Part shown: piece by piece, positions 3,012 to 49,091 of the stretch
How the letters are laid out: every line of letters begins with the position of its first letter
Numbering within the stretch: the stretch's first letter is position 1
Made by a program: the position numbers and the translations under genes
Assembly: GCF_011059185.1 (NCBI RefSeq)
Contig: NZ_JAALFE010000011.1
Span: 1 to 64,000 of the forward strand
Source of the DNA: Paragemmobacter kunshanensis
GTDB lineage: Bacteria; Pseudomonadota; Alphaproteobacteria; Rhodobacterales; Rhodobacteraceae
DNA length: 64,000 bases
Reading direction: 5' to 3'
The notes under the pieces: generated by a model
Databases searched by the model: none
What the model was told of the DNA's origin: nothing
The model's input: only the letters and a program-made list of their open reading frames with translations

Positions 3012-3233
3012 CTAGGGGCGGAAGATGTTGGGCGTGATCGACCCCGCCTCGCGCCAGGCGCGGGCCAGGGGGCCATGCACCGGCAGGCGCCTCTCCAGAA
3101 CCGTCTGAACGATCCAGGCGATGGCGGCGAAGGGGATCGCGACCAGGAAGATAAGGGCGAAATAGACGTAGAACTCGATGCGCGGCGCGCGGTGGGCGTG
3201 ATGCCCGTTCTCGCCTGCGGTATGATCGCTCAT
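3012..3233 (-). CDS. pufQ: PufQ, bacteriochlorophyll/antenna assembly protein
   Basis: PufQ is a small membrane protein at the head of the puf operon, implicated in tetrapyrrole flow to bacteriochlorophyll and LH complexes. The 73-residue product has a His-rich N-terminus, the [20 protein letters not shown] membrane segment (about residues 17-45), a basic patch and a C-terminal [10 protein letters not shown] motif typical of the family. Its ATG overlaps the bchZ stop in ATGA (3230-3233), so it is coupled to the bch genes upstream, as in Rhodobacter. The puf promoter is therefore expected inside bchZ. Confidence 0.95.
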
Positions 3234-4708
3234 GCAGTTCCTCCCTTTTGTGTTGCGCGGGCCGCGCCACGAAGCGCCTCCACCGTTTCCTTGACCACCC
3301 GCTCTGCGCCCTGGTCGAGCGCGGCCTTTTCGGCCGCATCGCGCAGGGTCCGCGCGGCGGAGATCCGTGTCAGGACCGGATGTTCGGCAACGATCCGGTC
3401 AAGCTCTGCCTGCGCATCGGCATCCCAGGGGAAGTCGCGCCGCAGGGTCGTGGGGGTGGCAGCCGTCGAGTCCATCTCGGACCCCAGCGGCAGGATGTGG
3501 AACAGCGCCTCGAACAGCCCGTTGCAGACCTCCTGCAGTAGCCAGACGCAGCCGGCATAGCCCATGAAGGGCGTGCCGGTATGGCGGCGGATGGCGGCAC
3601 CGGGGAAGCTTGCCGCGATGAAATGCGGCTGCGGTCCATGTCCGGCCTTGAGTTCCGCGAGATACATCTTCTCGTTGATCGACCCCATCAGGACCAGCGG
3701 GCGATGCTGGCGCACCATGGCGCGCACGGCCTCGTTGTTGGTCTTGGCGCCTGCCTGCCGCGCGACGGCAAAGGCGCAAGGCAGGCCAAGGTCGGTTTCC
3801 AGATAGGCGCGGATGCCGCGGGCATAGGTTTCATTCGCCACGATGGCGAAATTGGCGGTGCCAAAGAAATCCTGCGTTACCGACCGCCACAGATCCCAGA
3901 CGGGCTTCAGCGTGGAATGCTTCTCCCGCGCGATGAACGGCTCCGGGTCCAGCCCCAGCAACTCGCCCAGCTTGCGCAGGAATTTCGTCGTGGACTCGAG
4001 CCCGATGGGCGCCTGCAGATAGGGCTTGCCCAGCACCTCGGCCAGACCGCGCCCGAATTCCCGATACATGACGATGTTCACATCGGCATTCACGAGGTTC
4101 CGCATCTCGGCCAGATGCGCGCCCAGCGGCATGACCATGTTGACCTCGGCCCCGATCCCTTCGACCAGACGGCGGATTTCATGCAGGTCGGACGCCATGT
4201 TGAAGACGCCATACATCGGACCAAGGATGTTGACGCGCGGGCGGTCGCCATCCTCGCGCTTCTTCTCGATGGGCATCCGCCCCTTGGTCATGGCGAATTC
4301 GGTGAAGATCCAGGTCATCGCCCGGTCGGCGGCCTGCCACTGATCCTCGTCGATGGTGCGCGGCAGGAAACGCTGGATGTTCGTCCCCATGGGCGTCACG
4401 CCACCGCCGATCATCTCGGCAATCGACCCGGTCACGACCACGGCGGGCAAGGCAGGATCGAGCGTCTTCCAAGCCCGCTTCATCGCGCCCTCGGTGCCGT
4501 CGCGGCCCAGTTCTTCCTCGCCCAGCCCCGTCACCACGATGGGCAATTCATGCGGCGGCAGCGCGTCGGTGTAATGCAGGACGGAGGTCACGGGCAGGTT
4601 CTCGCAGCCCACGGGGCCGTCGATCACCACCTGCAATCCCTTGACGGCGCAGAAGGCATAGACCGCCCCCCAATAGCCGCCCGCACGATCATGGTCCTGG
4701 ATCAGCAT
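3230..4708 (-). CDS. bchZ: Chlorophyllide a reductase subunit Z
   Basis: NifK-like subunit of chlorophyllide oxidoreductase (BchXYZ), which reduces the ring B C7=C8 double bond to give the bacteriochlorin. The start at 4708 gives [20 protein letters not shown], the canonical N-terminus; the five residues before it come from a longer in-frame ATG. The cluster-binding motif GPVGCENLP lies near residue 34 and the nitrogenase-like fold continues to the C-terminus (about 492 residues). It is downstream of bchY across a spacer with three palindromes and overlaps pufQ by four bases. Confidence 0.97.
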
Positions 4709-4727
4709 GCACGCCTCCCCCAACCCC

Positions 4728-4812
4728 GATTTTTCTGCGAAAAATCAGCACCCGGAGCCGAGACCCGAATTTTCGCAGAAAATTCGTTCTTCAGATTTTT
4801 CGCAGAAAAATC
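4728..4812. repeat. Three tandem short palindromes between bchY and bchZ
   Basis: Three perfect 8-bp inverted repeats with 3-base spacers occupy the intercistronic gap: gatttttctgcgaaaaatc (4728-4746), gaattttcgcagaaaattc (4767-4785) and gatttttcgcagaaaaatc (4794-4812). They are AT-rich in a very GC-rich region. The second recurs unchanged at the end of crtA (17334-17352), and related palindromes follow crtC. They may form mRNA hairpins that set the relative stability of the bchY and bchZ segments, or be a mobile REP-like element; which one is not decided by the sequence. Confidence 0.85.
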
Positions 4813-4823
4813 GTGGCGACGGA

Positions 4824-6404
4824 TCATATCATCGCCTCCGCCGCGGCGGCCTTGGCGGCCTTTTCCAGCTTCTTCTGATGCGCCGCGCGGAAATCGGGGC
4901 GCAGGTTCGGCGCGCCTTCCCAGATGCCCGCCGTATCGCCGGTGCCGACGCCTTCGAAGAAGTCCTTCATCCCGTCCATGCGCGCCTTGTTGGCCATGGC
5001 GGCATTCACCACCTGCGCCAGGGACCCCGCCCCCGCAGGCCCCATCAGGGGCCGCGCCGAAATCAGGTTCGTGAAATACAGCGCCGGGATGGCCAGCTCC
5101 TTGGCCTTCTGCACCACCGGGGTCGTCCCGATGGCAAGGTCAGGCCGGAATGCCTCCATCGCCGCGCAGTCATCTTCCAGCGACGCGCGGTATTTCACCG
5201 CGACGCCCCGCGCCTCCAGCCAGTCGCGATCCGCCGCCGACCACTCGTTCCGCGCACAGGCCGTGCCGACATAGGCGACATCCGCCCCGCTTTCGACCAG
5301 CAGCCGCGCGACCAGCAGTTCGGAGCCTTCATAGCCCGACAGCGTGATCCGCCCCTTGATCGGGTTCGCCGCCAAAGCCCCCTTGATCGCACCGCCAAAG
5401 GCATTCTGCGCCGCCGCCACATGCGCCGGGTTCACGCCATAGGCATCGCCAATGGCCGCCAGCCAAGCCATCGTCCCGTCATATCCGACCGGAGCCGATC
5501 CCACGACCTTGCGCCCCGCCGCCTGAAACTCGCGGATTGCCGCCGTGTAGAAGGGATGGATCGCCGCCACCACGCCGCTATCCAGCGCGGCATAGAGCTC
5601 CCGCCACTCGCGGCACGGGACCACCGGCCCCGCGGCCAGACCCATCGGCGCCAGCATCGCCCCGATCATCATCGGGTCCGCCGGGAACATCTCGCCCAGC
5701 AGGGCAACCGTCGGACGATCCGACCGCCCCCGCTCGGGTGCCGCCACAGGCCCCGCCTCGATCTCGCGCCGCGCGTAAGCCAGCATGGCACCGGCCAGCA
5801 CGTCCTTCGCCTCGGCATGGGTCGGCACGCCGAAGCCCGGCACGTCGATGCCCACGATGCGGACACCGTTGATCTCGTTCGGCAGCAGCTTCAGCGGCAC
5901 GCCCGATGCGGTGGGCACGCAGAGGTTCGTCACCACCACCGCGTCATAACGCTCCGGGTCCGCCAGCTCATGCACCGCGTCGCGGATGTCCTCGAACAGC
6001 TTGCCCGTCACAAGCGTCTCAGAGTTGAACGGCACATAGCCCACCGACCGCCGCGCCCCGTAGAAGTGGCTCACAAAGGTCAGCCCATAGACACAGCAGG
6101 CCGACCCCGACAGAACCGTCGCCACCCGCCGCATCCGCAGACCCACGCGCAGCGAGCCGAAGGCAGGACACATGCTCTGCGGCTTGTCATGCGGACCTTG
6201 CGGATAATCCGCCGCATAGCGGTCCAGCACGTCGGAATTCCCCGCAGCCCGCGCCGCAGCTTCCATCTCAGCCGCACCTGCATGGCAACCCAGACCATCA
6301 AGATTGGGGCCATCCGCCACGACCCCGGCCGCACCCACTTCGGGGCGCAGCCCCTCGGTCACGGGCGTCTCGGCGGTGTGGTCATAGCGGATTTCGCCGT
6401 CCAT
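4824..6404 (-). CDS. bchY: Chlorophyllide a reductase subunit Y
   Basis: NifD-like subunit that forms the catalytic heterotetramer with BchZ. Recognisable blocks are PQSMCPAFGSLRVGLRMRR, the SGSACCVYGLTFVSHFYGA cluster region and NLCVPTASGVPLKLLPNEI. The ATG at 6404 overlaps the stop of a 23-codon micro-ORF as TGATG; a GTG one codon upstream (6407) is also possible. About 35 residues at the N-terminus (DGEIRYDHTAETPVTEGLRP and following) precede the part that aligns with the R. capsulatus protein as I remember it, so this may be a lineage-specific extension. It is about 526 residues and belongs to the bchC-X-Y-Z-puf operon. Confidence 0.96.
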   Translation of the reverse strand: MDGEIRYDHTAETPVTEGLRPEVGAAGVVADGPNLDGLGCHAGAAEMEAAARAAGNSDVLDRYAADYPQGPHDKPQSMCPAFGSLRVGLRMRRVATVLSGSACCVYGLTFVSHFYGARRSVGYVPFNSETLVTGKLFEDIRDAVHELADPERYDAVVVTNLCVPTASGVPLKLLPNEINGVRIVGIDVPGFGVPTHAEAKDVLAGAMLAYARREIEAGPVAAPERGRSDRPTVALLGEMFPADPMMIGAMLAPMGLAAGPVVPCREWRELYAALDSGVVAAIHPFYTAAIREFQAAGRKVVGSAPVGYDGTMAWLAAIGDAYGVNPAHVAAAQNAFGGAIKGALAANPIKGRITLSGYEGSELLVARLLVESGADVAYVGTACARNEWSAADRDWLEARGVAVKYRASLEDDCAAMEAFRPDLAIGTTPVVQKAKELAIPALYFTNLISARPLMGPAGAGSLAQVVNAAMANKARMDGMKDFFEGVGTGDTAGIWEGAPNLRPDFRAAHQKKLEKAAKAAAAEAMI

Positions 6405-13106: not shown

Positions 13107-13203
13107 CCGGAAATTGCGTCAATTTCCGGCGCGATTTCTGCACGCAGAAATCGCCTGAAAATCTGACACAGATTTTCGCCGCGCAACGGCAGGGCCGTTG
13201 CGC
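13107..13203. repeat. Array of four perfect hairpins after crtC
   Basis: Four consecutive perfect inverted repeats begin at the base after the crtC stop: ccggaaatt/aatttccgg (13107-13129), gcgatttctgc/gcagaaatcgc (13131-13154), gaaaatctg/cagattttc (13157-13177) and gcgcaacggc/gccgttgcgc (13181-13203), with loops of 5, 2, 3 and 3 bases. There is no T-run. The middle two share the TTTC...GAAA character of the bchY-bchZ palindromes. They lie between the convergent crtC and tspO genes and could end or stabilise both messages. The remaining bases to 13301 show nothing else. Confidence 0.85.
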
Positions 13204-13301
13204 GATACCCCGTTTTGCCGTCCGCTGGGTGCATACGCCCTGCTGCACTGGACGGCTGCACCGAGTGCTGCCATCCCGTTTCCGGCCAAAGCCTTGATTT
13301 C

Positions 13302-16550: not shown

Positions 16551-17399
16551 ATTTCTGTCACCAGCCTCAGCCTCTTCCGTTTCAACGGTCTCCTGCCGCG
16601 CCTGTGGGTCATCGGCCAGATGGGCGCGGCACGCCTTGCCCTGCGGCGGGAACACCGGGCGCTCTTCTGGAAACTGTGCGGATCGGGCACCGGGGAAGGC
16701 TTTACCCCGCGCCCGAACTGGGGCGTCTGGGCGATTGTCGCAGTCTGGCCGGATGAAGCCACGGCCCGGGCGGCGGTGGCGGAAAGCCCGGTCTGGCGGC
16801 GCTGGCGCGCCCGCGCGACCGAGGCCTGGACTGTCTTCCTCGATCCCCTGTCGGCGCGCGGCCGTTGGGCAGGCGTCAACCCTTTCCTGCCCGAAGCCGC
16901 CACACCCGGCGAACAGCGCGGCCCGCTTGCGGCGCTGACCCGCGCCACGGTGAAGCCCGCGCGCGCCCTGCGGTTCTGGGATCGGGTGCCGTCCATCTCG
17001 GCGGTGATCGGACGCGATCCGAATGTGGCCTTCAAGATCGGCATCGGCGAGGTGCCGCTCCTGCATCAGGTGACCTTCTCGATCTGGCCCGACACGGCCA
17101 GCATGGCGGCCTTTGCCCGGGGCGATGGCCCCCATGCCCGGGCGATCCGCGCCGTGCGCGATGGCAACTGGTTCAACGAAGAGCTTTACGCCCGCTTCCG
17201 CCTGTTGGGCAGCACGGGCTGCTGGAACGGGTCAGACCCCATCGCCTCTCTCGGCGCACAGGAACCGTCTGCGAAGGTTCCTGACCCCAATCCTTCGGCA
17301 ACGGATCGGGCAGCCAGCGAACCCCTTTCCCCAGAATTTTCGCAGAAAATTCGTCCCCAAGGAATTTCGCAAGAAATCCTTGCACTTACGGTGTCATGA
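16551..17399 (+). CDS. crtA: Spheroidene monooxygenase
   Basis: Haem-dependent oxygenase that puts the 2-keto group on spheroidene, giving spheroidenone in oxygen. The conserved body includes FWKLCGSGTGEGFTPRPNWGVWAI and NVAFKIGIGEVPLLHQVTFSIWP. The family N-terminus SVTSLSLFRFNGLLPRLWVIGQ lies upstream of the first ATG (16620), and the codon at the initiator position is ATT (16551), 7 bases after GGAGGG. I therefore place the start there. A conventional start at 16620 would lose about 23 conserved residues. The last ~17 codons are encoded by two palindromes of the local repeat family. Its stop overlaps the bchI start (ATGA). Confidence 0.88.
   Translation: MSVTSLSLFRFNGLLPRLWVIGQMGAARLALRREHRALFWKLCGSGTGEGFTPRPNWGVWAIVAVWPDEATARAAVAESPVWRRWRARATEAWTVFLDPLSARGRWAGVNPFLPEAATPGEQRGPLAALTRATVKPARALRFWDRVPSISAVIGRDPNVAFKIGIGEVPLLHQVTFSIWPDTASMAAFARGDGPHARAIRAVRDGNWFNEELYARFRLLGSTGCWNGSDPIASLGAQEPSAKVPDPNPSATDRAASEPLSPEFSQKIRPQGISQEILALTVS
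17334..17382. repeat. Palindromic repeats inside the crtA 3' end
   Basis: gaattttcgcagaaaattc (17334-17352) is identical to the middle palindrome between bchY and bchZ. It is followed by a second, imperfect one (aaggaatttc ... gaaatcctt, 17359-17381). Both lie within the crtA frame and encode PEFSQKIRPQGISQEIL at the C-terminus of CrtA. Confidence 0.85.
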
Positions 17400-37028: not shown

Positions 37029-37058
37029 CCCAAACGCGCACCCATGACCACTGCCGGA

Positions 37059-37108
37059 GCGGGGGGCCAGCCCCCCGCACCCCCCGGGGTATTTTCCCCG
37101 AGACGAAG
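37059..37108 (+). repeat. Rhodobacterales-type intergenic repeat with GC hairpin
   Basis: The bchH-bchL gap holds a perfect hairpin gcgggggg/ccccccgc (37059-37078) followed by a CCCCCGGGGTATTTT stretch and GAGACGAAG. This hairpin plus GGGTATTTT...AGANGAAG layout is common between genes in Rhodobacteraceae genomes. It may weaken read-through into bchL or be a neutral repeat. Related sequence is at 24961 and 49023. Confidence 0.6.
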
Positions 37109-37128
37109 ACCATTTCGAAAGGAAATGA

Positions 37129-38034
<906 letters not shown>

Positions 38035-48991: not shown

Positions 48992-49022
48992 GTCAGCCTC
49001 GCGCATTGCATCGCCTGCGGGA

Positions 49023-49075
49023 CCGGGGGTTTCACACCCCCGGACCCCCGTGGGATATTTGACAACGGAAAATGA
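49023..49075 (+). repeat. Rhodobacterales-type intergenic repeat in the urtB-urtC gap
   Basis: Hairpin ccgggggt/acccccgg (49023-49043) followed by ACCCCCGTGGGATATTTG and a degenerate purine-rich tail (gaaaatgag). It has the same layout as the copy at 37059, but points against the direction of the urt genes. The rest of 48992-49091 holds no gene. Confidence 0.5.
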
Positions 49076-49091
49076 GGGTAAGACATCACCA

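Follow-up and report, generated by a model that had tools for sequence, protein, structure and literature searches.

Short AT-rich palindromes in the photosynthesis gene cluster of Paragemmobacter kunshanensis as probable modules of REP-like composite elements

Palindromes at the locus

The window, by which we mean the whole stretch of DNA analysed here, comprises the first 64,000 nucleotides of contig NZ_JAALFE010000011.1 of Paragemmobacter kunshanensis (Rhodobacteraceae; assembly GCF_011059185.1) and includes genes for photosynthesis. Genes were called with a home-made codon-usage caller, and NCBIfam confirms the names BchZ, BchY, CrtA, CrtC and BchI, the first four of which had been used in an initial annotation. 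The bchZ (3230-4708) and bchY (4824-6404) genes, both with NCBIfam matches, lie on the minus strand and are separated by a spacer (4709-4823) holding three hairpins. These palindromes are AT-rich within a window of 66% GC, and have perfect 8-bp stems and a 3-nt loop that reads TGC or GCA depending on the strand. In operon order, the first two lie on the minus strand at 4794-4812 (GATTTTTC TGC GAAAAATC) and 4767-4785 (GAATTTTC TGC GAAAATTC) with their centres 27 nt apart, and the third (4728-4746) has the opposite orientation, with the TGC loop on the plus strand and its centre 39 nt from that of the second (centres 4803, 4776 and 4737). No fourth hairpin was seen in this array of the window genome, and a scan of window positions 4600-4900 against Rfam gave nothing at the gathering score and three sub-threshold matches only.

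Two further arrays are located near or within carotenoid genes. Related palindromes had been reported after crtC, and perfect hairpins indeed lie at 13131-13154 and 13157-13177, but the array consists of four perfect hairpins rather than two (13107-13204, strand unassigned), the others being at 13107-13129 and 13180-13204, with centre distances of 24.5, 24.5 and 25 nt. Likewise, the exact palindrome reported in crtA is present at 17334-17352, as the three are between bchY and bchZ, but it does not stand alone. It is the third hairpin, and the only perfect one, of a four-hairpin composite on the plus strand (17260-17381), with imperfect hairpins at 17260-17282, 17289-17307 and 17359-17381 and centres at 17271, 17298, 17343 and 17370, i.e. 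a pitch of 27, a centre of 45 and a pitch of 27.

The crtA frame as called (16620-17399, plus strand, 259 aa) runs through all four hairpins. The NCBIfam model for CrtA (spheroidene monooxygenase) covers residues 1-204 only; as the match begins at model position 24, translation may in fact start further upstream. The C-terminal tail past residue 204 of the called frame (17232-17399) is encoded through the hairpin array and may represent a putative protein extension. In the same numbering, residue 216 is the last of CrtA in the congeners G297, G302, G104 and G300, all without the composite; CrtA of G295 is also long, and there a similar composite has partly different arms.

Abundance and position in the genome

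The initial annotation was right about the recurrence of the palindromes and understated it. The sequence GAWTTTTCGCAGAAAAWTC (GAWTTTTC-GCA-GAAAAWTC) has 68 exact copies in the window genome (42 forward and 26 reverse) against none for a reversed-pattern control, and occurrence merely at chance frequency, which would have spoken against the observation, is not what was found. The genome-wide search proposed at that stage, here with up to three mismatches, returned 61 forward and 63 reverse matches, among which a single palindrome may be counted on both strands, and 0 and 0 for the control. This sequence represents two arm choices within a larger family that has the core TTC-TGC-GAA and covarying arms. 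With the two majority arms set aside, all five outer pairs were complementary in 25 of the 43 occurrences of the core TTCTGCGAA in seven sequence sets, the chance of this being about 1 in 1024 per occurrence, and 43 of 45 matches to GANNNTTCGCAGAANNNTC in G295 were fully paired, with nine different arms (counted by eye). The arms vary yet pair, and complementarity is thus kept while the sequence changes.

Perfect hairpins with a 3-nt loop and stems of at least 8 bp numbered 184 in a 0.79-Mb sample of the genome, compared to 34 in one order-2 random version, and since the sample was mostly picked around known copies these 184 are not to be read as a density. GCA/TGC was the commonest loop among them (62 of 184); it also leads among the AT-rich hairpins in the examined stretches of G077, G070 and G295, and is not the leading loop in those of G104, G300 and G302. 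The number of GCA-family copies ranges from 0 to 111 in the 19 genus genomes, and the two main arms have at least one copy in 29 of 295 family genomes. Additionally, nine viral-contig stretches contain the pattern.

Among 67 copies in the window genome, 66 are intergenic and one lies inside crtA. Copies occur mostly behind genes: 29 are located between convergent genes and only one of the 66 between divergent genes, with 20 and 16 in tandem spacers, where the loop sense is not fixed. Intergenic length would predict 10.9 convergent, 35.0 tandem and 20.1 divergent copies among the 66 (chi-square p 3e-11), with a base rate that is approximate because of the way the sample was picked. When the TGC strand is taken as sense, copies often begin a few nucleotides past a stop codon, and a GC-rich hairpin often comes next.

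The convergent and 3' location and the neighbouring GC-rich hairpin would suit transcription terminators or parts of terminators, and intrinsic-terminator-like sites are commoner in tandem gaps with elements (4/28) than without (15/398). We nevertheless consider such a role very unlikely, given that neither the bchY-bchZ array nor the crtA array has a T-run immediately after it, that one array sits between bchY and bchZ, and that terminator-like sites are equally common in convergent gaps with (5/22) and without elements (18/72). From this last comparison, the elements do not replace terminators. Replacement had been suggested by a convergent site (site A, see below) at which genomes without the composite, G300 and G302 among them, keep a terminator-like hairpin with a T-run, and was not borne out in the convergent gaps.

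Tandem and inverted arrays

The full element is an inverted array of four hairpins, with a tandem pair on either side of a centre and the two pairs oppositely oriented, and exists in two sister families. Full elements span approximately 100-140 bp in the examples read, and many copies are single or incomplete, the bchY-bchZ array of the window being a three-hairpin version. In the GCA family, same-strand neighbours within 30 nt have a pitch of 27 in 9 of 15 pairs (range 24-29, by eye), the pairs coming from the window-genome sample, G295 and the listed part of G296; the order of neighbours is TGC then GCA in 12 of 26 cases, GCA then TGC in 2 and the same in 12. The sister family, G[N4]YTG-ACG-CAR[N4]C with ACG/CGT loops, has between 1 and 129 copies per genome in the genus. 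Among its listed cases in G295 (all 77) and G296 (73 of 129), the same-strand pitch is exactly 24 nt in 43/43, and plus precedes minus in every mixed cluster. The post-crtC array of the window has about the pitch of this ACG family, and its first three hairpins resemble ACG-family arms, with an unusual loop order. The 24-nt tandem half-unit was present in three of 394 genomes drawn from the family, namely the window genome, G104 of its genus and G277. Searches with the ACG composite gave no match in plasmids or in phages, and the plasmid search with the bchY-bchZ array gave one matching record, from Gemmobacter aquarius (now Paragemmobacter aquarius), which G296 evidently represents, as the plasmid coordinates agree.

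Neighbouring hairpins on the same strand seldom share arms. In the ACG family, identical arms were found in 1 of 53 same-strand pairs, ten of these from the window genome, against 9.1 expected (permutation p 0.00025), while opposite-strand pairs have identical arms about as often as expected by chance (13/82 versus 15.1). This rarity is in line with direct repeats being lost through slippage, or with hairpins having to fold independently of their neighbours.

These features bear on whether the palindromes are binding sites, as the initial annotation had offered among three guesses. Dyad symmetry, a conserved core and identical words in several genera are what operators for a duplex-DNA-binding protein could have, but the arms change as long as pairing persists, which fits a duplex reading poorly, and the near absence of copies between divergent genes also argues against it. 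Furthermore, at 10.5 bp per turn, pitches of 24 and 27 would not share a helical phase. Altogether, we give operators very little credence.

The bchY-bchZ junction among relatives

The bchY-bchZ junction is present in 18 of the 19 genus genomes; the genes overlap without a spacer in 11 of these, and a spacer is found in seven, including the window genome. The GCA family fills the spacer in the window genome, in G297 and in G295, whose four hairpins all differ in their arms. G311 has a single decayed hairpin there, G302 a GTAG-flanked pair, and G298 and G307 a hairpin pair built on a TTCGAA core. Across 80 titled relatives, the junction is overlapping or short in 39, spaced in 40 and in neither class in one (L043). 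Perfect hairpins of at least 8 bp, belonging to several unrelated families, occur in 19 of the 40 spaced junctions (shuffle mean 1.1, maximum 4 of 100), direct repeats with a period of 10-12 in 11 (shuffle mean 0.95), and either of the two in 27. For comparison, among spacers 40-250 nt long, taken from seven sequence sets, perfect hairpins were found in 49/238 tandem, 30/49 convergent and 2/60 divergent spacers, and the junction is thus hairpin-richer than the average tandem spacer (19/40 versus 49/238, Fisher p 0.0006).

The junction counts slightly favour the main rival explanation, according to which these are functional intercistronic or 3'-end mRNA hairpins and selection keeps some hairpin, of any family, for mRNA decay, processing or translational coupling. 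The occupation of the post-crtC site by at least two different hairpin sets in congeners and the frequent start of copies a few nucleotides past a stop codon point in the same direction. However, a spacer is lacking in 39 of the 80 relatives and such a hairpin in 21 of the 40 spaced junctions, the one-mismatch copies of the window genome show no excess of G-U over A-C (5 and 5, both small numbers), the single stems are weak at about -4 kcal/mol, and the loop sense varies in tandem spacers. Hairpins within polycistronic messages, another of the initial guesses, are possible, although as the explanation of the elements we find selection for mRNA structure rather doubtful.

Other repeats share this junction. 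In L009, L011, L013, L031, L032, L040 and L049 the spacer contains 3-5 direct repeats with an 11-nt period and no hairpins, the repeat unit being lineage-specific (GTCGGTATTNN, ATGCACANNNN and others), and similar-looking repeats lie in gap 40 of G104, G300 and G302. L001, G302 (L235) and L008 have an inverted pair, GGTGCGTGC..GCACGCACC, whose stems enclose CTAC/GTAG and which would appear to be a GTAG-type REPIN-like element at the same spot as the bchY-bchZ array. A third hairpin pair, made up of CAAATTYCTTCGAAGRAATTTG and a second TTCGAA-core hairpin, is present, as such or in a near form, at bchY-bchZ (L019, L026, L046, G298 and G307), after crtC (G300, G302, G297) and at site A (G298). 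Finally, a GGGGG-CCCCC hairpin followed by ACCCCC..GTATTT-like and AGATGAAG-like sequence is located at 37029-37131 and 49007-49091 of the window, and recurs in orthologous gaps 29 and 43 as well as at bchY-bchZ of several relatives.

Turnover between congeners and covariation of the arms

The arms are interchangeable and the elements turn over between congeners. After crtC, the window genome and G104 have three hairpins in common with loop changes only, and G300, G302 and G297 carry a different hairpin pair. A further junction is occupied in G305 by four hairpins that belong to the GCA family or come close to it, and in G296 by four ACG-family hairpins. Of 18 genomes, six carry the ACG composite at the convergent site A, where G310 has only remnants and G298 another hairpin pair; G300, G302, G306 and G296 are without the composite, and G301, G311, G309, G299, G307 and G308 are not comparable. 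The site A flanks are 77-90% identical, the congeners being far apart. Comparison of empty and filled sites at bchY-bchZ, crtA and site A revealed no clean-ended insertion or target duplication; gap 40 of G295 is among the further examples of such sites. At some sites, the elements were inherited vertically and their structure was retained, and a few junctions, L006 among the cases, are occupied in more than one genus. The cross-genus junctions involve an IscR-like and an enoyl-CoA hydratase-like gene (both named by eye) and are too few to judge. Conservation of position in close relatives, on which the initial annotation had made its observation depend, consequently holds in part: certain positions are shared, but the hairpin families and the arms change from genome to genome.

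Compensatory change of the arms has occurred in place at one site. Relative to the window genome, 168 of 195 cells at site A were unchanged, 19 were double Watson-Crick changes, 2 were G-U and 6 were broken, compared to 0-3 double changes in slid controls with the partner shifted by 1-3 columns. These counts are of cells and not of events, as several sequences share changes by descent, and the pairs follow a four-hairpin reading of the window genome's own sequence, a choice that favours this reading over its slid versions. RNAalifold, when given the whole site A alignment, preferred to pair hairpin 1 with hairpin 4, and the four-hairpin reading was counted instead. Site B, compared among the window genome, G297, G304, G305 and G301, with G310 (remnants only) outside the count, had 3 double-change and 8 broken cells and was no better than its slid controls (0-3).

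Exchanges between T-A and A-T account for at least 9 of the 19 double changes at site A (unambiguous positions listed, relative to the window genome). Such exchanges cannot pass through G-U, which makes copying of one arm to the other in a single event, by template switching or conversion, an attractive explanation. Template switching is reported to homogenise the arms of inverted repeats and to maintain hairpins (PMC8604942, PMC8794818). Selection on the folded strand would also preserve pairing.

Relation to described repeats

Rickettsia palindromic elements are inserted in frame in genes. As in these elements, the reading frame stays open across the crtA composite, which would lengthen the protein, but the composite is alone in this respect, just 1 of 67 copies lying in a called gene. 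Elements of this kind are named in PMC3733652.

In the broad sense of a high-copy extragenic palindrome, the family resembles REPs, being a 19-bp palindrome with convergent and tandem placement and grouping in opposite orientation. Mobile palindromes of the REP/RPE type are the best of the three initial guesses and are partly supported: copy number, extragenic position 3' of genes, inverted doublets and presence or absence among congeners all agree, but a link to RAYT is lacking. The palindromes are REP-like in this broad sense and closest to the alphaproteobacterial CGTC REPs. The latter, according to PMC3733652, are mostly alphaproteobacterial, have 8-9 bp stems, AT pairs near the base, a loop of 4-5 nt and a CGTC (or TGTC, CCTC) tag at one end, and form opposite-orientation dimers behind genes without a dedicated transposase. 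Stem size, AT pairs near the base, opposite-orientation dimers, location behind genes and the lack of a known transposase are shared with the window-genome family. Unlike CGTC REPs, this family has a 3-nt loop and no constant tag (CGTC 10, CGTT 17, CGTG 14, CGTA 2 and other 24 of 67 copies, the last class including TGTC and CCTC without a separate count), and also has fixed-pitch tandem pairs within an inverted array and interchangeable arms. Neither Rhodobacter nor Paracoccus is mentioned in the main text of PMC3733652.

The inverted groups of small palindromes that form the repeated unit are a further likeness, to REPINs (PMC3116915) and BIMEs, from which these elements differ in the absence of GTAG and RAYT and in having up to four hairpins with different arms instead of a one-sequence doublet. 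Inverted doublets, extragenic position and patchy distribution would also be in line with classical GTAG REPs moved by RAYT, as would the GTAG-flanked pair that L001/G302 and L008 have at bchY-bchZ. This identity is scarcely credible and was rejected, as both defining features, the GTAG tag and a cognate RAYT, are missing. GTAG or CTAC lies beside the stem in only 2 of 67 copies. Y1_Tnp (PF01797, which includes RAYT and IS200-type Y1 transposases) was detected in 30 of 295 family genomes, which include neither the window genome nor the six others richest in the repeat (G077, G070, G216, G274, G091 and G166); in the 19 genus genomes none passed the cut-off, with one weak sub-cut-off match in G300. 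The association with a RAYT transposase that the initial annotation had suggested looking for was thus not seen in these genomes. Similarly, inspection by eye of the first residues in the 25 most shared clusters among 462 adjacent proteins revealed nothing transposase-like. Among the best literature matches, in titles and abstract openings and with limited coverage of subscription journals, no description naming the GCA or ACG family was found.

Discussion

The palindromes are, in our assessment, probably modules of REP/BIME-like composites that are not driven by RAYT, are kept perfect by paired arm changes and are passively transcribed. We infer that copies could spread as single-stranded DNA hairpins during replication, with a factor other than RAYT moving or copying the elements. 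A change in one arm would pass to the other by template switching inside the hairpin or by conversion among copies, which might keep the stems perfect without RNA selection. The elements would survive behind genes, where they may be least harmful. Where transcribed, they would add small intercistronic hairpins as by-products, perhaps occasionally useful ones, and the possible protein tail of CrtA would likewise be a by-product.

Several observations count against the REP/BIME-like explanation. No mobilising enzyme was found, and no clean ends or target duplication were seen; covariation at site B was no better than in slid controls; and a few junctions carry elements in two or more genera. Template switching should invert the loops too (PMC8604942, available portion), yet the order of orientations is nearly strict. 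In addition, vertical inheritance with structure kept at some sites would be explained by function as well. It is tentatively conceivable that the tetra-hairpin is instead a unit recognised as folded single strands by an enzyme or an RNA-binding factor that reads hairpin pairs at a fixed spacing and with a conserved triloop, the arms being free "words" that are required only to pair and, for the hairpins to fold separately, to differ from their neighbour. If true, small elements recognised by their folded structure would form a new class, separate from REP/RAYT and served by a dedicated system for mobilisation or processing.

The elements add REP-like families in a genus where no RAYT passes the cut-off. 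The double changes of stems in place, with few G-U intermediates, make it possible to compare template switching and selection as sources of apparent "covariation", and call for caution in RNA discovery. Further, the bchY-bchZ junction, either empty or filled by unrelated hairpin families within one genus, represents a natural experiment, in which the effect of such repeats on the expression of an operon is directly testable.
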